The notes under the pieces were generated by a model. The model had not been told where the DNA came from and made no database searches. It saw nothing but the letters and a program-made list of their open reading frames with translations. This document shows, one piece after another, positions 37,121 through 52,846 of a stretch of 64,000 nt of DNA. The position numbers were made by a program, and so were the translations under genes. Source of the DNA: Pseudomonas grandcourensis (GTDB lineage Bacteria > Pseudomonadota > Gammaproteobacteria > Pseudomonadales > Pseudomonadaceae); NCBI RefSeq assembly GCF_039909015.1, contig NZ_CP150919.1, positions 6,672,501 to 6,736,500 of the forward strand, read 5' to 3'. Each line of letters begins with the position of its first letter. The stretch's first letter is position 1.

Positions 37121-38092
37121 TTAACCCGATCCGGATCGGCACGCCGCCAACTCACGCTGCAGTCGTTCTGCATTCTGCGCTTCACTGAAAATCAGCTCGA
37201 TACGCGAATCCTGCCGCCATTCACTGGGCTTCCAGTCCAGCGCCGAGTTATCCACCGCGTTCGCCGAGACCCAGCCGTGGGCGCTGTGGATAACCAGCTT
37301 CGCCCGCCTCCAGGCAAGGCTTTCAAGCCACCGGCCAACCAGAGCGGCATCAAACACCTGGCTTGGGTGCCAACGCCATCCGATGCTCCAGCCTCCGCCC
37401 TGTTCCTGACTCAAGCAAATGGGCAGCGCGGGATCGCTCCATATCGCCGGCAACTGCGCCAATCCCTTGGGCACGACGAAGTTATCCACACCTGCCCGCG
37501 CTTTGGCATTCAGCCCCGGCAACTCGCTCAAAGGTAAAGCCGCCTGTTGCGTCCAGCACAGGGGGAGCGGCGGCAATTGTCCGGCAATTCGCTGACGGCT
37601 TTCTTCTTCGAGCCCCTCAGACTTGTTCAACAGCAGCAATCCCGCATGGCCCAGCGCTTGCTGTTGAACATCCGGCAGCGGTTTGCCAGCAGCGAGCGAC
37701 TGGGCATCCAACACCAGCACACAAGGCTGGACAGCCAACACGCCTTGCCACGGCGCTTCGCTTAATTGCCTGAGCAACTGCGCCGGATGCCCCAGCCCCG
37801 AGGGCTCGATGAACAACCGATCCGGTTGTGCCTTGCGCAACAAGCGCCCAAGACCAATCTGAAACGGCGCACCGTTGACACAACACAAGCAGCCCCCGGC
37901 CACTTCCCCCAGTGCGATACCATCGGCGTCCTGGGTCAGTAGTGCAGCGTCGAGACCGATCTGGCCAAACTCGTTGATCAACACCGCCCACCGCTCGCCA
38001 GCCGGGCGCTGGGCCAGCAGGTGCTTGATCAGGCTGGTCTTGCCGGCGCCCAACGGGCCGGCAATGACATGAGTGGGGATATTCTGCAGCAT
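37121..38092 (-). CDS. COG0523 GTPase (CobW/P47K family metallochaperone)
   Basis: A 323-residue G3E GTPase. Walker A is GPLGAGKTS (K18); the metal-binding CxCC motif is in GGCLCCVNG; VLINEFGQIGLDAALL and LFIEPSGLGHPAQLLRQL are family blocks, and NKSE stands for the NKxD base-recognition motif. COG0523 proteins deliver zinc or other metals to target enzymes, often under zinc limitation. It has no clear Shine-Dalgarno, and only 27 bp separate its start from the divergent small secreted gene. Transcription may come from the zigA side, running antisense through that gene. The client is unknown. Confidence 0.88.
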   Translation of the reverse strand: MLQNIPTHVIAGPLGAGKTSLIKHLLAQRPAGERWAVLINEFGQIGLDAALLTQDADGIALGEVAGGCLCCVNGAPFQIGLGRLLRKAQPDRLFIEPSGLGHPAQLLRQLSEAPWQGVLAVQPCVLVLDAQSLAAGKPLPDVQQQALGHAGLLLLNKSEGLEEESRQRIAGQLPPLPLCWTQQAALPLSELPGLNAKARAGVDNFVVPKGLAQLPAIWSDPALPICLSQEQGGGWSIGWRWHPSQVFDAALVGRWLESLAWRRAKLVIHSAHGWVSANAVDNSALDWKPSEWRQDSRIELIFSEAQNAERLQRELAACRSGSG

Positions 38093-38491: not shown

Positions 38492-39697
38492 TCAGGCGGC
38501 CTCTTCATACCAAGGGCCGAATGGATCAGGCAACAAACCCCAGCCCTCTACGCCAAGCGCCATTTCCTCATCGGTCAGCAGGCATGCGTCCAGTTCGGCC
38601 GTGAGCTGCGTGAAGTCAATGTTCTGGCCGATGAAAACCAGTTCCTGGCGACAGTCCCCGCTGTCGGCGGTCCAGTTTTTCATAATCCCGGCGGTACTTT
38701 CTTCGTCTTGCGGCCATTGGTTTTTCGGTACGAAACGCCACCAGCGCCCGGCAAAACCATAGCGCATCAAACCACCGGCCTGAGACCAACTGCCGGCGTC
38801 CATGTGCTTGCTCGCCAGCCAGAAAAAGCCCTTGGAACGCAGCAGCTTGCCGTTGTCCCAAGGACCGTCGATAAAATTGAAGAATCGCTGCGGATGGAAC
38901 GGCCGGCGAGCCCGGTAAGCACTGGAAGCAATGCCGTACTCTTCGGTTTCCGGCACGTGTTCGCCGCGCAGCTCCTGCAACCATCCCGGTGCCTGGGCAG
39001 CCTTTTCGAAGTCAAAACGACCGGTGTTGAGAATCTTGTTCAAGGGGATTTCACCCATCGCCATCGGAATGATTTCCGCCCGGGCGTTGAGCCGTTCAAG
39101 TATGGCGATCAGCTCCTCGCGTTGGTGGCTGCTGATCAAGTCGATCTTGCTGAGCAAAATCACATCGGCGAACTCGACCTGCTCGATCAACAGATCGGTA
39201 ATCGAACGTTCGTCTTCCTCCCCAAGGGTCTCTCCCCGGGAAGCCAGGCTTTCGGCAGCCTGGTAATCGAGCAGGAAGTTCATGCCGTCGACCACCGTGA
39301 CCATGGTGTCGAGACGGGCGATGTCATTGAGACTCTGGCCGTTTTCATCGCAGAAGGTGAAGGTTTCCGCCACTGGCAGCGGTTCGGAAATGCCGGTGGA
39401 CTCGATCAGCAGATAGTCGAAGCGACCCTCTCTGGCGAGTTGGCTCACCTCCTCCAGCAAGTCTTCACGTAACGTACAGCAAATACACCCGTTACTCATC
39501 TCAACCAACCGTTCTTCAGCGCGATTTAGGCTGACATCGCGCTGGACTTCGGCGCCATCGACGTTGATTTCGCTCATATCGTTGACGATGACTGCAACCC
39601 GCAAACCATCACGATTACGTAGTATGTAATTAAGAAGTGTACTTTTTCCGGCGCCAAGAAAGCCGGAGAGAACGGTCACGGGGAGTCGATTGGACAT
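38492..39697 (-). CDS. zigA: Zinc-responsive COG0523 GTPase, ZigA-like metallochaperone
   Basis: A 401-residue G3E GTPase with a CobW C-terminal domain. Walker A is [10 protein letters not shown] (11-20), the CxCC motif is in [11 protein letters not shown], and [14 protein letters not shown] carries the SKxD base-recognition motif. The C-terminus has [16 protein letters not shown] and ends [10 protein letters not shown]. The ZigA subgroup is induced by zinc starvation and supplies zinc to enzymes. A Zur-box palindrome lies 50 bp upstream (39747-39761). The ATG at 39697 (MSNRLPV) is chosen over ATG/GTG codons 2 and 5 positions earlier because GAGGAAT is then properly spaced. Confidence 0.9.
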
Positions 39698-39746
39698 CTG
39701 CATATTCCTCACAGGGATGCCCGGTCGCTGTGTCGGGCTTACACAA

Positions 39747-39761
39747 TGTTATACTGTAACA
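39747..39761. promoter_or_regulatory. Zur box between zigA and a secreted-protein gene
   Basis: TGTTATACTGTAACA is a near-perfect palindrome matching the gamma-proteobacterial Zur consensus core GTTATAnTATAAC at 12 of 13 positions counting the spacer. It lies 50 bp from the zigA start and 79 bp from the ATG at 39840, so it can control both divergent genes. Confidence 0.85.
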
Positions 39762-40318: not shown

Positions 40319-40335
40319 ATGTTATACTATAACAT
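40319..40335. promoter_or_regulatory. Zur box upstream of folE2
   Basis: ATGTTATACTATAACAT is a perfect 8-bp-arm palindrome around one central base and matches the Zur consensus GTTATAnTATAAC fully. It lies about 30 bp before the folE2 start, in position to repress the folE2-ABC transporter-gamma-CA operon when zinc is sufficient. Confidence 0.93.
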
Positions 40336-40365
40336 GTCAAACCAACTCCCACGATGGACCTGCTC

Positions 40366-41262
40366 ATGAATGCGCTGACTCTGCCGGATATCGCCGCGCA
40401 GGCCTCACGCCAAGCCCTGCCACTGGAGTGGGTGGGCATGTGCGGCATTGCTCTTCCCGTTTTGTTTGATGGCCAACGACTGAATGCAAAGGTCGATGCC
40501 GGCGTGAGCCTCGACGATGGCAACACGCGCGGCATTCACATGTCACGGCTCTATCTGGCGCTTGAATTGCTGGAGCAGGAAAACCTTTCACCGGCTTTAT
40601 TGCGGCGGGTTTTGCAGCGTTTTCTTGAGAGTCATGAAGGGCTATCCAGCAGCGCACACCTAACCATTCATGCCGATTTGTTGCTGAAAAGGCCGGCGCT
40701 GATCAGTCCATTGGCCGGCTGGAAAAGCTATCCGGTCAGCATCGAAGCGCGTTTGAAAAACGCAATGTTCCACGTGGAACTAAAAATCGACGTGCCTTAT
40801 TCCTCAACCTGCCCGTGTTCCGCGGCCCTTTCTCGACAGTTGATTCAGCAGCAGTTCGTCGATGATTTCGCCAACAAGCCACTGCAACACGCCGACGTTT
40901 TAGCCTGGCTCGGTTCCACGAACGGCATCGTCGCCACACCTCACAGCCAACGCAGCAGTGCAAAGTTGCGCGTACGTCTGGCTGATTTTCTGGACGAGTT
41001 GCCTCTGATCGCCGTCATCAACGACGCTGAAGCCGCACTCGGCACCGCCGTTCAAACAGCGGTAAAACGCGCCGACGAACAGGCCTTCGCCCTGGCCAAT
41101 GGTCAGAACCTGATGTTCTGCGAAGACGCCGCACGCCGTTTGAATCTGGCCCTCAAGCGGTCCACAGGCATCAGCGCCTTCCACATTCGTGTCATCCACG
41201 CCGAAAGCCTGCACGCCCACGACGCCGTAGCCGAAAGCCGTTTCAACTGGGAGGCCGCATGA
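40366..41262 (+). CDS. folE2: GTP cyclohydrolase IB (zinc-independent)
   Basis: A 298-residue GCYH-IB enzyme converting GTP to 7,8-dihydroneopterin triphosphate for folate synthesis. It uses Mn2+ or other metals instead of zinc and replaces FolE under zinc starvation. Family motifs are VDAGVSLDDGNTRGIHMSRL and YSSTCPCSAAL with catalytic C149. The ATG at 40366 (MNALTLPD) is preferred to one at 40354. It sits just downstream of a perfect Zur box and overlaps the next gene by ATGA. The ABC transporter, gamma-CA and probably the ThrRS-like gene are in the same direction. Confidence 0.95.
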   Translation: MNALTLPDIAAQASRQALPLEWVGMCGIALPVLFDGQRLNAKVDAGVSLDDGNTRGIHMSRLYLALELLEQENLSPALLRRVLQRFLESHEGLSSSAHLTIHADLLLKRPALISPLAGWKSYPVSIEARLKNAMFHVELKIDVPYSSTCPCSAALSRQLIQQQFVDDFANKPLQHADVLAWLGSTNGIVATPHSQRSSAKLRVRLADFLDELPLIAVINDAEAALGTAVQTAVKRADEQAFALANGQNLMFCEDAARRLNLALKRSTGISAFHIRVIHAESLHAHDAVAESRFNWEAA

Positions 41263-41927
41263 TTGCTTGCCACGCTTTGCGCTGGGGTGCACCGGGGCAG
41301 CCACTCACGCCAGCGCTGGACTTCGAACTGTCGAAGGGCAACCTGACTGCCATCATCGGTGCGAACGGCTCCGGGAAAAGCAGCCTGTTGAAGGTCATCG
41401 CCGGCTTGCAAAAACCGTTGGCCGGAAAGGTTCGACTGAGTGTTCCACTCAAGGGGGGTGTGTCGTTCCTGCCCCAGCAACAACACCTCGACAGACAATT
41501 CCCGATCAGCCTTCAGGCATTGGTCGCCGCCGGTTTCTGGGGCAACAAACAGTCACCACAGGTCCGTAGCCAACGACTGAAAACCGTCCTCGAAAACTGG
41601 TGCCTGAATGGCCTGGAAGATCGACCCTTGATGGCCCTCTCCGGCGGCGAATTGCAACGCGCCCTGCTCGCCCGATTGAGCCTGACCGACGCACCCTTGC
41701 TATTGCTCGATGAACCCCACGCGGCCCTCGATGAACTCGGCCAGGCATTGCTCTGGAAGCACATATACGAATGGCACCTCGAGGGCCGAACACAGGTGGT
41801 CGTGTGCCATGACCTCGCCGCTGTCCGCGAGCACATCCCACACACGTTGCTGATCAAAAGCAGTGGATGCGCATTCGGCCCGAGCACCGAACTGATCCGC
41901 CAACCACCACAAGCGCAGGTGGCCTGA
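41259..41927 (+). CDS. Metal ABC transporter ATP-binding protein (ZnuC-like)
   Basis: A 222-residue ABC ATPase. Walker A is GANGSGKSS, followed by SFLPQQQHLDRQFPIS (Q-loop), signature LSGGELQRALLARL, Walker B LLLLDEPHAALD and switch histidine in VVCHDLAAV. It belongs to the zinc/manganese importer class by its place with a cluster A-I binding protein and ABC-3 permease. The start overlaps the folE2 stop (ATGA) and the stop overlaps the permease start (TGATG), so the genes are translationally coupled. It is a second system beside the usual znuABC of Pseudomonas, under Zur control by context. Confidence 0.93.
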   Translation: MIACHALRWGAPGQPLTPALDFELSKGNLTAIIGANGSGKSSLLKVIAGLQKPLAGKVRLSVPLKGGVSFLPQQQHLDRQFPISLQALVAAGFWGNKQSPQVRSQRLKTVLENWCLNGLEDRPLMALSGGELQRALLARLSLTDAPLLLLDEPHAALDELGQALLWKHIYEWHLEGRTQVVVCHDLAAVREHIPHTLLIKSSGCAFGPSTELIRQPPQAQVA

Positions 41928-42793
41928 TGATCGCTGCCGCGCATCTCTGGCAACCGTTCCACGAGTTCGTGTTCATGCGTCGGGCGCTGCTCGGCGGTTT
42001 GCTCCTGGCGTGCAGTACGGCGCCCCTTGGGGTGTTTCTGATCCTCAGGCGCATGAGCCTGATCGGCGATGCCGTCGCCCACGGCATCCTTCCCGGTGCG
42101 GCTCTAGGTTTCTGGTTTGCCGGGTTGAGCCTCCCGGCGTTGACCATCGGCGGTCTCGGCGCCGGCCTGAGCATGGCCGGCCTCGCCGCCTGGATTACGC
42201 GGCGCACCGGCCTGCGAGAGGACGCCAGCCTCGCGGCGATCTACCCGATTTCCCTGGCCGGTGGCGTGCTGATTCTCGGCATCGCCGGCAAACGCCTGGA
42301 CCTGTTGCACCTGCTGTTTGGCTCGGCGCTGGCAGTCGACGGCCCGACCTTGACCGGCATGCTTTGGGTCTCGGGCCTGAGCCTGATTGCCATGGCGCTG
42401 ATCTACAAGCCACTACTGCTCGACACCCTCGACCCGCTTTTTCTGCAAACCGTCAGCCGACTCGGCCCACTGGCCCACGGCGTGTTCCTGACGCTGGTGG
42501 TGTTGAATCTGGTCATCGGTTTCCAGGCGATCGGCGCGTTGATGGTGGTCGGCCTGATGATGCTGCCTGCCGCTGCTGCGCGTTTCTGGAGTCGTCGCCT
42601 GCCGGTGCTGATCGTCGTCGCGGCGTTGCTCGGCAGCCTCTCGGTGTGGCTCGGTTTACTGATCTCGTTCTATTACTCGCTACCCAGTGGCCCGGCAATC
42701 GTGCTGGTGGCCGGCGGAGGGTATCTGTTGTCCGTGGTGTTCGGGCCGGTGCACGGCTTGCTGCGCCGCCCGCCTTTGCTCACATCCCAATGA
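41927..42793 (+). CDS. Metal ABC transporter permease (ABC-3/ZnuB-like)
   Basis: A 288-residue inner-membrane protein with about eight hydrophobic segments of the ABC-3 family. Features include FMRRALLGGLLLACSTAPLG, RRMSLIGDAVAHGILPGAAL (the coupling region), and FQAIGALMVVGLMMLPAAAA. The ATG at 41927 overlaps the ATPase stop codon; the frame is open 20 codons further up but that would lie inside the ATPase gene. It forms the membrane pore for zinc (or manganese) uptake with the ATPase and the binding protein on either side. Confidence 0.93.
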   Translation: MIAAAHLWQPFHEFVFMRRALLGGLLLACSTAPLGVFLILRRMSLIGDAVAHGILPGAALGFWFAGLSLPALTIGGLGAGLSMAGLAAWITRRTGLREDASLAAIYPISLAGGVLILGIAGKRLDLLHLLFGSALAVDGPTLTGMLWVSGLSLIAMALIYKPLLLDTLDPLFLQTVSRLGPLAHGVFLTLVVLNLVIGFQAIGALMVVGLMMLPAAAARFWSRRLPVLIVVAALLGSLSVWLGLLISFYYSLPSGPAIVLVAGGGYLLSVVFGPVHGLLRRPPLLTSQ

Positions 42794-42804
42794 GGTGTTA
42801 CCCG

Positions 42805-43680
42805 ATGCGCGCTTTACTCGTGCTGTTCAGCTTGATGGTGTCGATGTCGCTGTCTGCCGCCGAAAAACTTCAGGTGGTCACCAGCTTCAGCATCCTTGCC
42901 GACATGACCCGGCAGGTTGGCAAAGATCATATCCAGATCACCAACATGGTCGGCCCGGACGCGGATGCACATACCTACGAGCCGACACCGGACGACGCCA
43001 AAGCGCTGCTCAAGGCCAGGCTCATCATCAAGAACGGCCTGGGTTTCGAGCCCTGGCTGGATCGACTGGTGACGAGCACCGAGACCCGGGCGCAGGTCAT
43101 CAGCGCGAGTCGCGGTGTCATACCGCGCAGCCTGGATGAAGACGGCGAAACCGTTCCCGACCCGCACGCCTGGCATAACCTGGCGAACACCGAGCTGTAC
43201 ATCGCCAATATCACCAAGGCGCTGATCACCGCCGACCCGGCAAACACCGCCGACTATGAGCGCAACAGCCAGGCGTATCTGAAACAGGTCTATGCCCTGC
43301 TCGCCGAAGCCAAGGCCAAACTCGGTTCACTGTCACCGGGCAACCGCAAGATCGTGACCTCCCACGATGCCTTCGGTTATCTCGGCCAGGCCTACGGCAT
43401 CGAGTTCATGGCGCCTCAAGGCCTGTCCACCGAGCGCGAACCTTCAGCCGCCGAAGTGGCCGCACTGATCACCCAGATTCGTCAGGCCAAGGTCAAGGCG
43501 GTGTTCATGGAAAACATCAAGGACGCCCGCCTGCTCAAGCAGATCGCCGATGAAAGCGATGCGCAGATCGGCGGCACGCTGTACTCCGACGCCTTGGCGG
43601 CGAGCGGTCCGGCCAGCACCTTCACCGGCTTGTTCGAGTACAACCTCAACACCCTGTACAACGCGTTGAGCAAGCCATGA
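42805..43680 (+). CDS. Metal ABC transporter substrate-binding protein (cluster A-I, ZnuA/MntC-like)
   Basis: A 291-residue periplasmic protein with signal peptide (MRALLVLFSLMVSMSLSAAE). Metal ligands expected from the family are H56 (DADAHTYEP), H121 (DPHAWHN), H187 (TSHDAFGYL) and D262 (LYSDAL). The charged His-rich loop of typical ZnuA is missing, so zinc or manganese are both possible from sequence; the Zur box upstream favours zinc. The ATG at 42805 has GAGGTG upstream; a much longer open frame starting inside the permease gene is out of phase with it and rejected. The stop overlaps the gamma-CA start. Confidence 0.93.
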   Translation: MRALLVLFSLMVSMSLSAAEKLQVVTSFSILADMTRQVGKDHIQITNMVGPDADAHTYEPTPDDAKALLKARLIIKNGLGFEPWLDRLVTSTETRAQVISASRGVIPRSLDEDGETVPDPHAWHNLANTELYIANITKALITADPANTADYERNSQAYLKQVYALLAEAKAKLGSLSPGNRKIVTSHDAFGYLGQAYGIEFMAPQGLSTEREPSAAEVAALITQIRQAKVKAVFMENIKDARLLKQIADESDAQIGGTLYSDALAASGPASTFTGLFEYNLNTLYNALSKP

Positions 43681-44237
43681 TCCGCAAGAACCCTTCCGGA
43701 GATTTGCCGCGGATTGCGGAGTCGGCCTACGTCGACAAGACGGCGATCATCTGCGGCAAAGTGGTGATCGGTGAGAACGTGTTCGTCGGCCCCTATGCCG
43801 TGATCCGCGCTGACGAAGTCGATGACTCGGGCGACATGCAGCCGATCACCATCGGCGCCAACTCGAACATCCAGGACGGTGTGGTCATCCACTCCAAATC
43901 CGGTGCGGCGGTGACCATTGGCGAGTTCAGTTCGATCGCCCACCGCTCGATCGTGCATGGCCCCTGCACCGTGGGCAACCGAGTGTTCATCGGCTTCAAC
44001 AGCGTGCTGTTCAACTGTGTGGTCGGTGACGGTTGCGTGGTTCGGCACAACTCGGTGGTCGACGGTCGTGACCTGCCTGAGGCCTTCTACGTGCCCTCCA
44101 CCACGCGGATCGGCCCCAACACCGACCTCTCGCAATACCCGCCGGTGAGCGTCAGTGCCTCGGAGTTCTCCGAAGACGTAGCGCGCACCAACGTCGACCT
44201 GGTGCGCGGCTACAAAGCCCTGCAAAACGAGTTCTGA
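43677..44237 (+). CDS. Gamma-class carbonic anhydrase-like protein
   Basis: A 186-residue left-handed beta-helix protein with hexapeptide repeats (IGENVFVGPYAVIRAD; TIGANSNIQDGVVIHSK; TVGNRVFIGFNSVLFNCVV). The metal-binding histidines H72, H89 and H94 have the spacing of gamma-CA. It is related to the carbonate dehydratase coded near folE2 in P. aeruginosa (PA5540). Gamma-CAs can use Fe or Co in place of Zn, which would suit replacement of a zinc carbonic anhydrase in zinc-poor conditions; this is an inference. It overlaps the binding-protein gene by ATGA, so it is in the same operon. Confidence 0.92.
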   Translation: MIRKNPSGDLPRIAESAYVDKTAIICGKVVIGENVFVGPYAVIRADEVDDSGDMQPITIGANSNIQDGVVIHSKSGAAVTIGEFSSIAHRSIVHGPCTVGNRVFIGFNSVLFNCVVGDGCVVRHNSVVDGRDLPEAFYVPSTTRIGPNTDLSQYPPVSVSASEFSEDVARTNVDLVRGYKALQNEF

Positions 44238-44260
44238 CGCGGGTGGCCAAAAACAGCCAT

Positions 44261-44286
44261 CGTGTCAGGACAAATTGCCTGGCACG
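44261..44286 (+). other. Imperfect hairpin before the ThrRS-like gene
   Basis: CGTGtCAGG and CCTGgCACG pair across an 8-nt loop between the gamma-CA stop and the ThrRS-like start. There is no T-run, so it is not an obvious terminator; it could modulate read-through into the next gene. No Zur box is visible in this 120-bp gap. Confidence 0.4.
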
Positions 44287-44357
44287 ACAAACGTCTTAAT
44301 GTTTGCCCCTACGGTTTATGCGATAAAGCTCGTTAGAAGCACGTGAGTACGCCGACC

Positions 44358-45236
44358 ATGATCCAGATCACCCTGCCCGATGGTTCATTGCGTGAATACG
44401 ACCAGCCACTGTCCGTGCACGAGGTGGCCGCCAGCATCGGCGCCGAACTGGCCAGCGCGGCCGTAGCGGGAAGGGTCGACGGTGTACTGGTGGACTGCGA
44501 ATACCTGATCGAAGCGGATGCCCGGGTCAGCATTGTCACCCCCCGGGAGCCGGACGGCCTGGAGATCCTGCGCCGCTCCTGTGCATTGATGCTGGCCATG
44601 GCGGTCAAGCAACTCCACCCTCATGCGCAAATGCGTGCGGGAAAGGAGTTGGGTGACGGTTTCTTTTACGAGTTTACAGTCGAGCAACCGCTGACCCCGG
44701 CAGACCTGCCCCTCATCGAAGCGCGCATGCAGTCACTGGCCGCAACCAATCACTCGATCCGTCGTCGGCCGGCGCGCGAAGCAGTGCCGCTGTACCGTCT
44801 GGGGGACACCGAATACCAGAGCCACGGACCGCACGTCCCCACCACCAAAGTCTTGCAGGCGTTTGCCCTCGATCACATCAGCGGCACGTTACAGCAACGG
44901 ATCTACGGCACTTGCTGGTCCAGCCATCAGGAGCTGCAACACTGGCGTGTTCCACCCCACGTGGTTGTCGTGAGCATGGATGACCGCCAGGCGACTTATG
45001 CACAAGCGGTAACCGAATCCTTGCGCCAAAAAGGCGTGCGGGCCAAGGCCGACCTGCGAAACGAAAAAGTTCGCTACAAGATTCGTCAGCATAGCCAGAG
45101 CGTGCCGTACCTGGTCGTGGTTGGCGAAAAGGAAAAGGCCGGGGGGTTCGTCAGTGTGCGCAGTCGCACGGGGGAGGATTTTGGCCGGATGGCCGTCGAG
45201 GCGGCGTGTGAGTGGTTGAGTCGGCCGGGGATCTAG
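44358..45236 (+). CDS. Threonyl-tRNA synthetase-like protein lacking the catalytic core
   Basis: A 292-residue protein collinear with ThrRS but with the centre removed. It has a TGS domain (MIQITLPDGSLREYDQPLSV onward, residues 1-62), an editing-type N2 domain (about 63-185), a short hinge (LQQRIYGTCWSSHQELQHW), then directly the anticodon-binding domain (VPPHVVVVSMDDRQATYAQA and ADLRNEKVRYKIRQHSQSVP). The roughly 290-residue aminoacylation domain, with its zinc ligands, is absent. In N2 the HxxxH motif is replaced (RRSCALMLA) and the editing cysteine in MCRGPHVP is lost (QSHGPHVP). It cannot charge tRNA. It lies in the zinc-starvation block; the role is unknown. A GTG at 44343 is an alternative start. 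Confidence 0.85.
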   Translation: MIQITLPDGSLREYDQPLSVHEVAASIGAELASAAVAGRVDGVLVDCEYLIEADARVSIVTPREPDGLEILRRSCALMLAMAVKQLHPHAQMRAGKELGDGFFYEFTVEQPLTPADLPLIEARMQSLAATNHSIRRRPAREAVPLYRLGDTEYQSHGPHVPTTKVLQAFALDHISGTLQQRIYGTCWSSHQELQHWRVPPHVVVVSMDDRQATYAQAVTESLRQKGVRAKADLRNEKVRYKIRQHSQSVPYLVVVGEKEKAGGFVSVRSRTGEDFGRMAVEAACEWLSRPGI

Positions 45237-45249
45237 GGAGGCTGGAAGG

Positions 45250-45326
45250 ACGCCTTCGCGAGCAAGCCCGCTCCCACACTGGATCTGCGGTGTTCACAAA
45301 ACCAATGTGGGAGCGATCCTGTTCCG
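45250..45326. repeat. REP palindrome pair
   Basis: Inverse REP TTCGCGAGCAAGCCCGCTCC (45255) and a truncated forward REP AATGTGGGAGCGATCCTG (45304) lie in the convergent gap between the ThrRS-like and DUF3617 genes. Confidence 0.85.
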
Positions 45327-45347
45327 GGCGGCGATCCGACGAAGCTT

Positions 45348-45869
45348 TTAAGCTCTTGGCTTCACCGTGCCGCAATCCTGTCCCAACCAGACGGCGCGGG
45401 ATTCGAGGCTGCCCTTCTGCTGAATGCCGGTGGCATTGAATGTCCCGTTGACCTTGGTGGTGAATTCGCGATCACTGACGAATGTCGCCACACCGGCACC
45501 CTGGGCTCTCGGGCAGCTGAAACGGAATTTCCACTGATTGCCGGAGCGGTCGGTGATTTCCTGTTTGCAGCCCGACTGCGGATCGGTCAGCGGAATGTTG
45601 TCGGTCTTGACCTGTTCCGGGGTCAGGCACGCCCGGATCCCTTTGCCGCCCATGGTGATGCCCTGCTTTTCCAGCTGGGCACGCTGCTCGGGGGTCATCT
45701 GGTTCTGGAGCTGGCCGAGGATCAATTGCAGGTCCGGCATATTCTGCTCGTCGACCTTCATGTTGCTCGTGGTCAGCTCCCACAAACCTGGTTGCAGCAT
45801 TTGCGCGTGAGCCGCCACAGGAAGTGCCAAACCCAGTGCCATGGCCAAACCCAGCAGACGAACGTTCAT
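45348..45869 (-). CDS. DUF3617 periplasmic protein
   Basis: A 173-residue protein with signal peptide (MNVRLLGLAMALGLALPVAA, cleavage near AHA-Q). The mature part starts MLQPGLWELTTSNMKVDEQN, the DUF3617 opening, and has four cysteines (CLTPEQV, GCKQE, SCPRAQ, DCGTV), matching the two-disulfide pattern of the family. Function is unknown; it probably lies in the periplasm. It is convergent with the ThrRS-like gene and divergent from cls. Confidence 0.88.
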   Translation of the reverse strand: MNVRLLGLAMALGLALPVAAHAQMLQPGLWELTTSNMKVDEQNMPDLQLILGQLQNQMTPEQRAQLEKQGITMGGKGIRACLTPEQVKTDNIPLTDPQSGCKQEITDRSGNQWKFRFSCPRAQGAGVATFVSDREFTTKVNGTFNATGIQQKGSLESRAVWLGQDCGTVKPRA

Positions 45870-48840: not shown

Positions 48841-50751
48841 TCAGGTTTCGTCCTTGAGCTTGAGCAAAGGCTCCTGGAACCGCAACAAACGACCGGCATT
48901 GCCCAACACCAACAAGGTGCTGAGGTTATGCAGCAACGCCGCAATCATCGCCCCGGCAGCACCGAGCCAGCCGAACGCGGCGAAGGCCACGATCGCCAGG
49001 GTCCAGCCGAGCCCGATGATCACATTGACCTGCAATGTCTGGCGGCACTGACGACTCAGGCGCACGCAGGTGCCGAGACGGCGCAGGTCACTGCCGATCA
49101 GCACGATGTCCGCCGATGCCAGGGCGATGTCCGCACCGCCCGCGCCCATGGCTACACCGACCACACCCGCTTTGAGGGCCAGGGAGTCGTTGATGCCATC
49201 GCCGACCACCATCGGCCGGAAGCCGCTGTCGATTTCCTTGAGCACGCGGTTGAGTTTGTCTTCGGGCAAGGCTTGCGCTTCGACGTCACTGATCCCGACA
49301 TCCCGGGCCAACGCCTGCGCGACGCTGTGCCGGTCACCGGTGAGCAACAACTGGCGGCCCAACCCGAGGTCGCGCAATTCACCCAAGGCAAACTGCGCCT
49401 CGGGTTTGACGCTGTCGGCCAACAACAGCCAGGCGAGGAATTCACCATTGAGCGCCAACCCGGCAATCGGACCGTCGTGATCGGGAACCGTCGTTGTGCT
49501 GATGCCCAGTTGCGCAAACAACTCCGGTCGGCCGAGCGCCGCTTCGCCCTGCTCGGTCATCGCCACCACGCCCAGGCCCTGGCGCTCATGAATGTCAGAA
49601 AGCAGCAGGAAATGCTCTTGGGTCACCAACCCCGCGAGCGCACGGCTGACCGGGTGACTGCTGGCCGAGCCGAGGCTGGCAGCGAGCGCCTGGACATGGC
49701 TACGATCCTCCAGCGGACTGTCGATGGATTGCAGACGCAAGGTGCCGAAGGTCAGCGTCCCGGTCTTGTCGACCACCAACGAAGTCAGATCCGCCAGCTC
49801 TTCAAGGAACGCAGAACTGCGGATCAGAATCCCGTGGCGTGCCGCTACCGCCACCCCGGCAATAGCCGTCGCCGGTGCCGACAACACCAGCGCACAAGGA
49901 CAGGCCGCCACCAACACCGCGAGCATCGCTTGAGCGTTGTTGGTGATGAACCAGGTCACCGCCGCCAGCAGCAACACCAGCACCATATAGCTGCCGGCGT
50001 AACGCTCCAGCAAACGAGTGATCGGCGGTTTCGAGCGCTCGGCGTTTTGCATCAGGGCGATGACTTTGCCGAGGGTCGATTCCTGGCCGGTGCGGGTCAC
50101 TTCGATTCGCAGCAGACCGTCGAGGTTGATCGCGCCACCGAACACCGACATGCCGACGCCCGCCTCCATCGGCACCGATTCGCCGGTAATGGAGGCGGTG
50201 TCCAGACTCGCCTGGCCGGATAACACCCGACCATCCGACGGCACCCGGTCCCCGGCGCGGACCTCGACCAGGTCGCCCGCCTTGAGCGTGCCGTTGTCGA
50301 CTTCGATGATGGAGCCGTCCGCCTGAACCTTGCGCGCGTGGCTGCGGGTCAGTTTGCCGAGGGCGTGAATCGCCTCCTGGGAACCGATCACGCTGCGCTC
50401 CTCCAGCACGTGACCGAAGATCATGATGATCGGCAACAGGGCCGCCGTCAGCAGATCCCCGGTGGCCCAGGCACCCAGCATGGCCAAGGCAATCAATTGA
50501 TCGGTAATGCCGTGCAGGCTTGGATAACGCAGGCTGTACCAGGCCGAACGCATGACCGGTATGGCGACCAGCAGCGAGGCAAAACCCAGCAGCAGCTGAC
50601 TGACGCCAGTCTGCTCCGGCGCCAGCCAACGCCAGATCAAACCCAGCGCGAGCAGGCCCAACGCGAGCATGGCCAGGGTCAGTTGGCGCGCGGCGCTACG
50701 TTGTTCTGCCGAAGACAACATGCTCGGCGCGGTGGCGGTTTGCGCAGTCAT
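48841..50751 (-). CDS. hmtA: P1B-type metal-transporting ATPase, HmtA-like (zinc/copper import)
   Basis: A 636-residue P-type ATPase. It shows TGES in SITGESVPMEAG, the membrane metal site C284-P-C286 (AACPCALVLSAP), phosphorylation site D328 (DKTGTLTFG), the SHPV histidine-proline of P1B enzymes and VVGDGINDSLALKAG. The last membrane part has LLHNLSTLLVLGNAGRLLRF. There is no N-terminal HMA or CxxC metal-binding domain. P. aeruginosa HmtA (PA2435) is a member reported to import zinc and copper and is coded with SPFH-type genes, as here. It is last in a four-gene operon with ATGA overlaps and a Zur box at its head, which supports import rather than detoxification. Confidence 0.88.
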   Translation of the reverse strand: MTAQTATAPSMLSSAEQRSAARQLTLAMLALGLLALGLIWRWLAPEQTGVSQLLLGFASLLVAIPVMRSAWYSLRYPSLHGITDQLIALAMLGAWATGDLLTAALLPIIMIFGHVLEERSVIGSQEAIHALGKLTRSHARKVQADGSIIEVDNGTLKAGDLVEVRAGDRVPSDGRVLSGQASLDTASITGESVPMEAGVGMSVFGGAINLDGLLRIEVTRTGQESTLGKVIALMQNAERSKPPITRLLERYAGSYMVLVLLLAAVTWFITNNAQAMLAVLVAACPCALVLSAPATAIAGVAVAARHGILIRSSAFLEELADLTSLVVDKTGTLTFGTLRLQSIDSPLEDRSHVQALAASLGSASSHPVSRALAGLVTQEHFLLLSDIHERQGLGVVAMTEQGEAALGRPELFAQLGISTTTVPDHDGPIAGLALNGEFLAWLLLADSVKPEAQFALGELRDLGLGRQLLLTGDRHSVAQALARDVGISDVEAQALPEDKLNRVLKEIDSGFRPMVVGDGINDSLALKAGVVGVAMGAGGADIALASADIVLIGSDLRRLGTCVRLSRQCRQTLQVNVIIGLGWTLAIVAFAAFGWLGAAGAMIAALLHNLSTLLVLGNAGRLLRFQEPLLKLKDET

Positions 50752-51806
50752 TGTGCTGCTCCCTGAATGACCAGGCGGGAATCGTCTTTGGGATCGACCG
50801 TTGTGACTGAACCGGCCTGACCGAGAATTTTCGGCATCCGCTCGCGATAGATGCGCAGCAGCATTTGCGGGTCAGTACCCTGCTGTTGCGCCTTGGCCAG
50901 GCTCAACACCGTGGCCGTGTCGGTGGATGCTTTGGCCAGTCGTTCACTGGCCTGGGCATGGGCAACTTGCAGTGTTCTGTCGGCTTGCTCGTTGGCGGTT
51001 TGCGTCAGTTTTTCGGCTTCGGTACGCGCATTGGCCACAGCTTTGTCGGCCTGCTGGCTCGCTGTGAGGACCGCATTGAAAGCATTGACCGCCGGGCTTG
51101 GCAGACTCGATTGCACATCCACCCGAGCCACCTCGATCCCCAGTCCCTGCCCCGTCGCCGTGAGTTCGGCAAGACGCTGGTTGATGCCCTGCACCAGATC
51201 GCCTCGCAAGCGCTCGCGTCGTTCCGCCGCCTGACTGTCAGCGCCGATCAGCTCTGGCCGGGCGACCAGAATTGTGTCCAGATCCCGTGCGGCCGTGAGC
51301 GCGACTGCACTGCGGGTCACCAGACGATCCAGTGCCGGCAACACATGTTCGCCCTGAAGTACGAACGCATAGGGCTCGGTGACTTTATAGAAAACCCGCA
51401 CATCCAGTTGCACCACCCCGGCATCACCAGTCAGCAGATAACCTGAGCCTGCCAATGCATCACTGATTGGCGTGGCAAAACTGGCCACGCGATCTGCCTG
51501 GATCGCGGCGCCACTGCGCAACAGACCTTCCACTCGACGCTCGATCACCCGATCCGCCGCAGGCAACAAAATCACCTGCTCGAACGGTTGCGGCCAGGCC
51601 AATAACAGCCCGGCATTCTGAATGCGATCCAGCGCGCCGAAATGCAAAACCACTGCGCGATTTTGCGGATCGATCTGCCGTACATTGGAAAACGCCCACG
51701 CCAATGCCGCCAACACCGTTACTGCGTAAAGGGCGAGAAACGCCAAGCGCCCGGCCTGAATCCAGGGGCTGCTCAACTCATTTGTTCCACGTGGAACCAA
51801 ACTCAT
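50748..51806 (-). CDS. SPFH/Band-7 protein, HflC-like (third in hmtA operon)
   Basis: A 352-residue protein. One N-terminal membrane segment (RLAFLALYAVTVLAALAWAF) is followed by an SPFH/Band-7 domain (about 45-240: IDPQNRAVVLHFGALDRIQN and LDVRVFYKVTEPYAFVLQGE). A long coiled coil rich in A, Q, E (ASQQADKAVANARTEAEKLT) completes it. It resembles HflC/HflK but is not the hflX-linked pair. Its stop overlaps the hmtA start in an ATGA. It probably assembles with the two other SPFH proteins into a membrane cage around or near the ATPase; this is an inference. Confidence 0.87.
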   Translation of the reverse strand: MSLVPRGTNELSSPWIQAGRLAFLALYAVTVLAALAWAFSNVRQIDPQNRAVVLHFGALDRIQNAGLLLAWPQPFEQVILLPAADRVIERRVEGLLRSGAAIQADRVASFATPISDALAGSGYLLTGDAGVVQLDVRVFYKVTEPYAFVLQGEHVLPALDRLVTRSAVALTAARDLDTILVARPELIGADSQAAERRERLRGDLVQGINQRLAELTATGQGLGIEVARVDVQSSLPSPAVNAFNAVLTASQQADKAVANARTEAEKLTQTANEQADRTLQVAHAQASERLAKASTDTATVLSLAKAQQQGTDPQMLLRIYRERMPKILGQAGSVTTVDPKDDSRLVIQGAAQ

Positions 51807-52846
51807 GGCTGCGATCCGGACTTGTTGTCGAGGCTCGGCGGACCGTCAACCAACACCCGGAACGGTGCGGCATCGGTGCGCAGAATCAGCTTGGTCCCAG
51901 GCGTCACCACCGTGCCCAAGGTGTCGAGCGAGCGCAGCAGGTTGTAGAGCTGCGGCGATCCCGCGTAGGCGCGACCGTAAATCTGCGCCGCTTCGACGCG
52001 TGATTGCGCTTCGATATCCGCTGCTTTCACCGTGGCATCGGCCTGAACAATTCGCGCATCACGTTCAGCGGCTGAACGAATTTGCGCGGCCTCACGCTTG
52101 CCGATGGCCGTGCGCTCAGTGGCGATGGTTTCACGCTCGGCGCGCATCCGGTCGACCGTCGCGATGAGCGTCACCGAAGGCAGCGTCAATCGTTCGATAC
52201 CGACCTGCAACACGCGCACGCCATAAGTGGTGAGCAGCTGCTGATCGATTTGCTTGCGCAGCTGTGCTTCGAAATCAGCGATGCGCACCTGGCTGGCATC
52301 GGTATTGACCAGGTTCGCCAGATCAAAACTGCTGGCGGTGGTTTCCAGTGCCGAGCCGACAAAGGTGCGAATCTGCCGCGCGGCTTCATCCGGCTGGTTC
52401 TGCACCGCACGCATGAAACGTTGCACATTGTCCGGATCGCCCTGCACCTGCCACGCCACGTAGGCCTGAACGATGATGCGCAAACCGTCCCGCGTGCCGA
52501 CATCCTGCAAACCGCTGGACGTGGTACGCAGTCGTAGATCCACCGGAATCGCCGCTTCGAACGGTGCCGGCCAGCGCCAACCCAGTCCCGGCTCCAGCAA
52601 GACTCGCGATGGATTGCCGAAGCGCGTGATCACGGTGGCTTCACCCGAACGCACCTGCACCAGGCTCGCGGCGGCAACCGCAAACGCCACCAGCAATGCC
52701 GCCCACCCCATCCGACGCCAAGGGAATGGACCGGCTTCCTGAGGATCGCCGTGGTGATGATGGTGGTGGCCGTGGTGGTGCTGTCCGCCATGGCCGTGAT
52801 CGTGGCCGGCGTGGTCATCGTGATCGTGGGAATGGGACTGGCTCAA
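51803..52846 (-). CDS. SPFH/Band-7 protein with histidine-rich N-terminus (HflK-like)
   Basis: A 347-residue protein. The first 33 residues contain 16 histidines (MSQSHSHDHDDHAGHDHGHG onward, ending in a run of six His), a typical low-affinity zinc-binding stretch on the cytoplasmic side. One membrane segment (GWAALLVAFAVAAASLV) and an SPFH domain with SGEATVITRFGNPSRVLLEP follow, then a helical region (AAQIRSAAERDARIVQADAT). It overlaps both neighbours by ATGA. The His tail in an operon with a Zur box and a zinc-type ATPase suggests metal loading or sensing at the membrane. Confidence 0.87.
   Translation of the reverse strand: MSQSHSHDHDDHAGHDHGHGGQHHHGHHHHHHGDPQEAGPFPWRRMGWAALLVAFAVAAASLVQVRSGEATVITRFGNPSRVLLEPGLGWRWPAPFEAAIPVDLRLRTTSSGLQDVGTRDGLRIIVQAYVAWQVQGDPDNVQRFMRAVQNQPDEAARQIRTFVGSALETTASSFDLANLVNTDASQVRIADFEAQLRKQIDQQLLTTYGVRVLQVGIERLTLPSVTLIATVDRMRAERETIATERTAIGKREAAQIRSAAERDARIVQADATVKAADIEAQSRVEAAQIYGRAYAGSPQLYNLLRSLDTLGTVVTPGTKLILRTDAAPFRVLVDGPPSLDNKSGSQP

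Follow-up and report, generated by a model that had tools for sequence, protein, structure and literature searches.

In Escherichia coli, threonyl-tRNA synthetase (ThrRS) recognises two anticodon-like hairpins in the thrS operator and represses the gene, and the dimeric core of the enzyme is formed by its catalytic and anticodon domains (passages of PMC11088916). Without its N-terminal region, E. coli ThrRS loses thrS regulation, according to part of another source (PMC7373986). Passages of Haas et al. 2009 (PMC2770081) place ThrRS among the paralogues regulated by Zur, with the zinc residues conserved; they speak of conserved zinc sites and do not mention a form without the core. In the T1/T2 pair of Anabaena, a second ThrRS under Zur control acts together with the housekeeping enzyme when zinc is low (Rubio 2015, PMC4787780, in part). 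Here we describe a ThrRS paralogue without its aminoacylation core, encoded behind a folE2-zinc importer operon in Pseudomonas grandcourensis. The window is the whole stretch analysed, 64,000 nucleotides of contig NZ_CP150919.1 (positions 6,672,501 to 6,736,500). The open-literature matches listed include no paper that describes a bacterial ThrRS without core in a zinc regulon, and a prior description elsewhere is possible.

The gene is a real open reading frame on the + strand, from an ATG at 44358 to the stop at 45236, with a GTG at 44343 as a possible alternative start. Its product, of 292 aminoacids, is confirmed as a ThrRS derivative reduced to TGS, N2 and the anticodon-binding domain. 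In terms of PFAM, only TGS and HGTP_anticodon are matched in this protein, and no class II synthetase core. Descent from ThrRS is supported by domains, tree and fold, with all three remaining parts present. Against E. coli ThrRS the numbering jumps from 231 to 536 (304 residues missing), from 204 to 214 (9) and from 138 to 166 (27). Residues 232-535 have no counterpart in the alignment, and the missing stretch begins with the linker between N2 and core and ends immediately ahead of the conserved W in the anticodon domain. The original prediction, made from the sequence alone, had a deleted aminoacylation core and “about 290” residues lost; the alignment fixes the deletion ends at 231/536, and the estimate was close to the main gap. 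The NCBIfam enzyme family TIGR00418 (thrS) scores 102.8 bits, below its cut-off of 383.65, and NF011500 (Ser-tRNA(Thr) hydrolase) reaches 26 bits against 362, over the anticodon domain only. A separate full-length thrS lies elsewhere in the host genome (6.76 Mb, one contig). The AlphaFold model is a compact fold (predicted local distance difference test, pLDDT, 93.7; predicted template modelling score, pTM, 0.89), with a confident N2 that matches 1tje at a root-mean-square deviation of 1.6 over 188 residues.

As for the origin of this form, a maximum-likelihood tree over 289 shared columns groups all 64 core-less proteins in one clade (ultrafast bootstrap, UFBoot, 100), inside the clade of zinc-locus ThrRS, hereafter ThrRS2. 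The core was therefore most simply lost once, and several independent losses find no support in the tree. The nine closest named full-length loci (L045-L051, L054, L062) are 54-57% identical in the N-part and carry the ThrRS gene at the same place of the operon, after cam and before DUF3617 and cls. Six other Pseudomonas full-length loci (L056, L058-L061, L063) have it after folE2, mostly with importer genes, and no cls was found downstream within the stretch examined. A 27-residue segment of N2 is present in one core-less protein (L092) and absent from the other 63, L092 being an intermediate stage of the reduction.

The core-less genes are under purifying selection. Their pairwise ratio of nonsynonymous to synonymous rates (dN/dS; 463 pairs with dS 0.1-1) is 0.166 overall, with 0.117 for TGS, 0.141 for N2 and 0.205 for the anticodon domain. 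For comparison, full-length ThrRS2 (166 pairs, identical columns) gives 0.233 overall and 0.231, 0.167 and 0.310 for the three parts; the “core” value rests on 36 columns and was left unused. The frames of the 64 aligned proteins are intact, with divergence down to 53% identity with the window protein. Codon use is like that of the neighbours (a score like the codon adaptation index of 0.686 versus 0.62-0.78 in ten neighbours, the same ten being the reference set). We rejected a pseudogene on the intact frames and dN/dS, and the claim that this is no recent pseudogene stands, with open frames across genomes.

The residues show which functions are gone. At the editing site the window protein has H73R and H77L, K156 is deleted and C182 is replaced by S. 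Over the 64 core-less proteins, H73 is retained in 1, H77 in 0, K156 in 1, D180 in 1 and C182 in 4; the same five residues are retained in all 47 full-length proteins aligned. H186 is kept by 61/64. The domain had been described as degraded, which holds for the lost active site but not as decay, given its confident modelled fold and its constraint. All 64 core-less proteins lack the zinc ligands C334, H385 and H511, which 19/19 ThrRS2 have. The suggestion of a zinc-status decoy is thus weak, because no ThrRS zinc ligand is left. In the anticodon domain, D572, R574, E576, K581, R583, G597, E600, R609 and G617 (E. coli numbering) are found in every one of the 64, and K577 in 61. We take E600 and R609 to be anticodon-reading positions, for which no supporting paper was found, and which of the conserved positions contact RNA is likewise presumed.

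The core-less form is not limited to one strain. In a Pseudomonas census, 71/398 genomes match at E <= 1e-50, 55 with core-less and 16 with full-length frames; this is a lower bound, because at most six candidates per genome were scored and only at that threshold. From the 55 core-less calls, 23 were read in sequence and the rest were judged from a single match that covers both ends within one open frame (293-373 aminoacids). One genome (G108) matched over residues 1-138 only, yet proved core-less with 324 aminoacids when read. Among named genomes (the best 80 loci of a longer list), 42 core-less loci are intact and two are broken, by a frameshift (L052) and a deletion (L055). Assembly error was rejected given the intact orthologues in the 42 named loci and 55/398 genomes, which also show the truncated form conserved across species. 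A full-length gene in relatives, raised as a sign of an assembly deletion, exists in the evolutionary sense only, as the nine named loci with the gene at the same position. A sub-clade around P. canadensis (L043, L084-L087) has a core-less ThrRS of 272 aminoacids, with H77S rather than H77L and no WLAP stretch.

Outside Pseudomonas, 0/368 other genomes of the class match at E <= 1e-52, a threshold that distant independent cases would escape. Mobile copies were rejected, as tblastn of 72,556 plasmid records (phage records not searched) gave three partial matches at 38.8-39.2% identity and 67% query coverage. Considering genomes with a folE2 at least 85% identical to that of the window, 41 of the 56 have the core-less form, 8 the full-length one and 7 no match.

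The zinc-starvation context claimed in the original prediction is borne out by the sequence. A perfect Zur-like box precedes folE2, matched to what we take to be the Zur-box consensus. The window has 7 matches with at most 3 mismatches, when shuffles average 2.5 and 3/100 reach 7. Over the 8 kb preceding the gene, 50 of 65 core-less loci have a perfect box, while in 8 the closest match has 1 mismatch and in 7 it has 2; shuffled stretches reach 0, 1 and 2 mismatches in 0, 1 and 5 of 90. The same architecture, which the prediction proposed to look for beside Zur-type genes in other pseudomonads, is therefore found with a box in 65/65 core-less loci. A perfect box is also present in 24/25 full-length ThrRS2 loci, the last (L105) having none within the fetched stretch. 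We infer that the core-less gene is probably under Zur control and induced by zinc starvation.

The operon content is variable. All six upstream genes (folE2, aztA, aztB, znuA, cam, pyrC2) are present in 31 of the 65 core-less loci, 11 lack only pyrC2 and 7 lack cam and pyrC2. Another 11 retain folE2 alone, each with a box of 0-2 mismatches 1.06-1.22 kb upstream; three have folE2, cam and pyrC2, one has folE2, aztA and znuA, and L023 has none of the six at a 60% coverage threshold. Full-length loci have all six in 22/25. These loci were fetched via the ThrRS gene, some genomes twice (at least L085 and L110 repeat the protein of another locus), so the counts are biased and give no free test of the retention of that gene. 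In five loci (L011, L017, L018, L112, L113) the operon consists of a Zur-like box, folE2 and the core-less gene, with no importer, carbonic anhydrase or pyrC2 found upstream.

We then turn to a candidate target, the thrS leader. In the host (L125, G000:C1 minus strand, just upstream of 4548560) it has two NGU anticodon-arm mimics, at about -114 and -40. The Pseudomonas leader ends in a hairpin able to form a stem of 7 bp, with UUGGUAG as its 7-nt loop, directly before the Shine-Dalgarno sequence; in tRNA numbering the loop reads U33, G34 G35 U36, A37. The E. coli leader has a homologous arm with CGU. A proximal NGU arm followed by CAC is found in 39/55 leaders from the genus, order and class (own genome apart), 18 of them Pseudomonas, and in 2/1100 mononucleotide shuffles. 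Leaders could be placed for 55/57 loci (L170 and L177 unplaced), with the misplaced starts of L156 and L163 counted as misses. Position 34 is G in 24, C in 16 and A in 1 of 41 arms, GU at 35-36 being required by the search. Stem cells of the proximal arm are 93.7% paired, with 17 compensatory cells over four pairs, in 25 arms preselected for at least 6/7 pairs, so these counts lean towards structure; further pair types number 10, no higher than in shuffles (10.2). A distal NGU arm (UGU or CGU), at about -98 to -115, is present in 19/19 Pseudomonas leaders versus 50/950 shuffles.

RNAalifold over 15 leaders keeps both hairpins and pairs the Shine-Dalgarno sequence with upstream bases; in this fold the proximal arm has a stem of 9 bp and a loop of 3 nt instead of 7 bp and 7 nt, and a double change is seen in only 1/36 pairs. 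Rfam finds no leader family in four leader loci (L126 and three others), the sole match being a tRNA in L144, and nothing in the window. In L153, an order-level relative, the proximal arm occurs as two tandem copies, at 68 and 34 bases upstream of the thrS start, both with CGU. A threonine-arm leader of the core-less gene itself was rejected: an NGU arm lies within 150 bp upstream in 1/65 core-less and 1/25 full-length ThrRS2 loci, none followed by CAC, which is below the shuffled rate (35/650 and 13/250).

Taken together, these results point tentatively to an enzyme-dead, RNA-binding regulator of thrS that would be induced by zinc starvation, a reading to which we give a probability of about 0.4. 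From the earlier ideas, a tRNA-Thr binder or thrS-mRNA regulator forms the best-supported group as far as sequence can tell, because the anticodon-domain positions are kept and the host leader has anticodon-arm mimics. The RNA binding, its target and the direction of regulation are all inferred. The proposed steps are as follows. A zinc-locus ThrRS2 was most simply cut in one event to TGS, N2 and the anticodon domain, a form kept by selection. Zinc scarcity would relieve Zur repression of the folE2 operon, and the core-less protein would be made. It would then most likely bind an RNA that carries an anticodon arm of the threonine type, with an NGU loop. The best candidate is the host thrS leader, with two arms before the start codon, one of them directly before the Shine-Dalgarno sequence. 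With the N-domain retained, it could repress thrS in trans and so adjust the output of ThrRS, a zinc enzyme, to the zinc supply. A broader version is doubtful: a Zur-induced, zinc-free repressor acting in trans would couple zinc supply to ThrRS translation through the leader mimics, and the ancestral ThrRS2 would have been both replacement enzyme and repressor, with only the second role kept by the core-less form.

Several observations weigh against a thrS regulator. The main weakness is the loss of the catalytic half from the dimer core. Repression of thrS in E. coli needs a dimer on both arms, and if the same holds here, a monomer may bind weakly. In the anticodon domain, N575 is retained in only 43/64 and R611 in only 38/64, and K/R at 589 is mostly lost. 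The proximal arm is missing from 16/55 leaders under the search rule, and the distal-arm rule finds no second arm in E. coli. Furthermore, carriers (L126, L130, L131) and genomes with no match (L127-L129) share an identical proximal arm, which makes this arm a possible target only and no specific evidence for the core-less protein; the arms are expected to serve ThrRS itself. A search pattern that stays near the known arm matches one site of the host genome, the thrS leader itself, and a backwards control also gives one within 3 mismatches. At a wider threshold folE2 is matched in 209/398 genomes, compared with 71/398 for the ThrRS family, so the ThrRS gene is often absent. Lastly, co-transcription of the core-less gene across a 120-bp gap is assumed.

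Other functions were weighed against the same evidence. The protein could bind tRNA-Thr itself, sequestering or protecting the uncharged tRNA when zinc-starved ThrRS fails, with the thrS leader irrelevant. The same conserved anticodon-domain positions would serve, and a eukaryotic ThrRS-like protein has been hypothesised to recycle tRNA-Thr under stress (in part of PMC9437257). However, without the core, contact would depend on the anticodon arm and on what is left in N2, and the strong constraint on TGS and N2 is left unexplained, so that we hold this to be unlikely.

Less probable is a ribosome-associated factor of zinc starvation, with the ThrRS N-part recruited to the ribosome by analogy with mitoribosomal mL39. 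The fold match to mL39 follows from common ThrRS ancestry alone, and the retained anticodon domain would be superfluous in such a model.

The chances are slimmer again for a competitor or anti-repressor, which would occupy the leader arms without blocking the ribosome and so raise ThrRS synthesis in zinc starvation. A monomer lacking the core would not span two arms as a dimer could, and both arms are present in 19/19 Pseudomonas leaders. On the other side, the N-domain, needed for repression in E. coli (passages of PMC7373986), is retained and constrained. As the most constrained part, it is easier to reconcile with active repression than with passive competition.

A functionless ThrRS2 remnant in slow decay seems improbable. 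The stepwise erosion of the editing site (L092 with the 27-residue segment, the other 63 without), the two broken copies among 44 named loci and the 7/56 genomes with a close folE2 but no family match would fit it. The dN/dS of 0.166 over 463 pairs, the 64 intact frames despite divergence to 53% identity, the nine invariant anticodon-domain positions and the retention of the gene in 11 loci stripped of all operon genes but folE2 (a biased count) do not. The constraint thus makes decay without function unlikely, even though many genomes lack the gene. Finally, editing of mischarged Ser-tRNA-Thr in trans, suggested by the core-less architecture, by the archaeal ThrRS-ed, a truncated ThrRS without catalytic site (passages of PMC9976931), and by H186 in 61/64, was rejected because 60-64 of the 64 proteins have lost H73, H77, K156, D180 and C182.

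The features of the locus are collected in Table 1. Upstream of the core-less gene lies a remnant of pyrC2 of 68 bp, with a 13-bp gap relative to L019; many relatives have an intact pyrC2 between cam and the core-less gene. No promoter- or terminator-like sites were found in 43600-45400.

Table 1. Features of the zinc operon and of the core-less ThrRS gene, in window coordinates.
Feature	Coordinates	Strand	Evidence
Zur-like box GTTATACTATAAC, 0 mismatches, 20 bp before folE2	40321..40333	+	consensus match
folE2 (zinc-independent GTP cyclohydrolase), first gene of predicted operon	40354..41262	+	NF010200, above cut-off
Metal ABC transporter ATPase, AztA/ZnuC-like	41259..41927	+	below AztA cut-off
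Metal ABC transporter permease, AztB/ZnuB-like	41867..42793	+	below AztB cut-off
Frame of ZnuA-type binding protein, true start near 42.8 kb	42010..43680	+	PF01297, frame residues 289-552
Gamma-carbonic anhydrase-like (cam), hexapeptide repeats	43677..44237	+	below NCBIfam cut-offs
3' remnant of deleted pyrC2 (Zur-type dihydroorotase), to its stop codon	44259..44326	+	local alignment, L010/L019 tails
Core-less ThrRS paralogue	44358..45236	+	292 aa
TGS domain, aa 1-61, most constrained part	44358..44540	+	Pfam PF02824 (aa 2-61); dN/dS 0.117
N2 (former editing domain), aa 62-192	44541..44933	+	residue alignment; fold vs 1tje
Deletion junction, aa 195/196 = E. coli 231/536, catalytic core absent	44940..44945	+	alignment
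Anticodon-binding domain, aa 196-292	44943..45233	+	Pfam PF03129 HGTP_anticodon (aa 202-288); conserved positions

Some other genes of the window may also be linked to metals. A gene for the ZigA zinc metallochaperone GTPase (38492-39712, - strand) is divergent from the operon and has its own Zur-like box with 1 mismatch (39748-39760), and a second CobW-type GTPase lies at 37121-38092. Further downstream, an HflC-like SPFH protein (51803-52846, - strand) with a long histidine-rich N-terminus lies beside genes for a heavy-metal P-type ATPase (48841-50751) and for an HflK-like protein (50748-51806). The two SPFH proteins score below the NCBIfam cut-offs and possibly form a metal-linked HflKC variant.

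Many proteins similar to aminoacyl-tRNA synthetases retain the catalytic fold and lose other parts. Examples are given in passages of PMC9437257. Here, by contrast, selection retained all but the catalytic fold. If the core-less protein does regulate thrS, one RNA operator would be read by an enzyme and by an enzyme-dead paralogue under metal control, which would suggest why ThrRS genes recur in Zur regulons. This bacterial core-less line beside mL39 also makes the role of TGS and N2 alone testable in an easy host.

Compared with known systems, mL39 (MRPL39) is an independent core-less ThrRS descendant that shares the TGS and N2 fold without the core, but it is part of the ribosome. The fold match ends at model residue 234-236 among the matches listed, so most of the anticodon domain is unmatched in mL39. 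Archaeal ThrRS-ed likewise lacks the catalytic site, according to passages of PMC9976931; it differs in its active editing domain, a structural homologue of DTD in part of PMC7373986, whereas the bacterial N2 site of the core-less protein is lost. Anabaena T2, as described in passages of PMC4787780, is a full, dimerising enzyme, unlike the Pseudomonas protein without core. The nearest relative and presumed ancestor is the full-length Pseudomonas ThrRS2, with the same operon place, clade, TGS, N2 and anticodon domain; it differs in retaining the core, the zinc ligands (19/19) and the editing residues. Finally, E. coli ThrRS as repressor of thrS shares the N-domain and the anticodon domain, and the host has a homologous anticodon-arm leader, but the core-less protein is separate, zinc-linked and enzyme-dead, without the catalytic half of the dimer.
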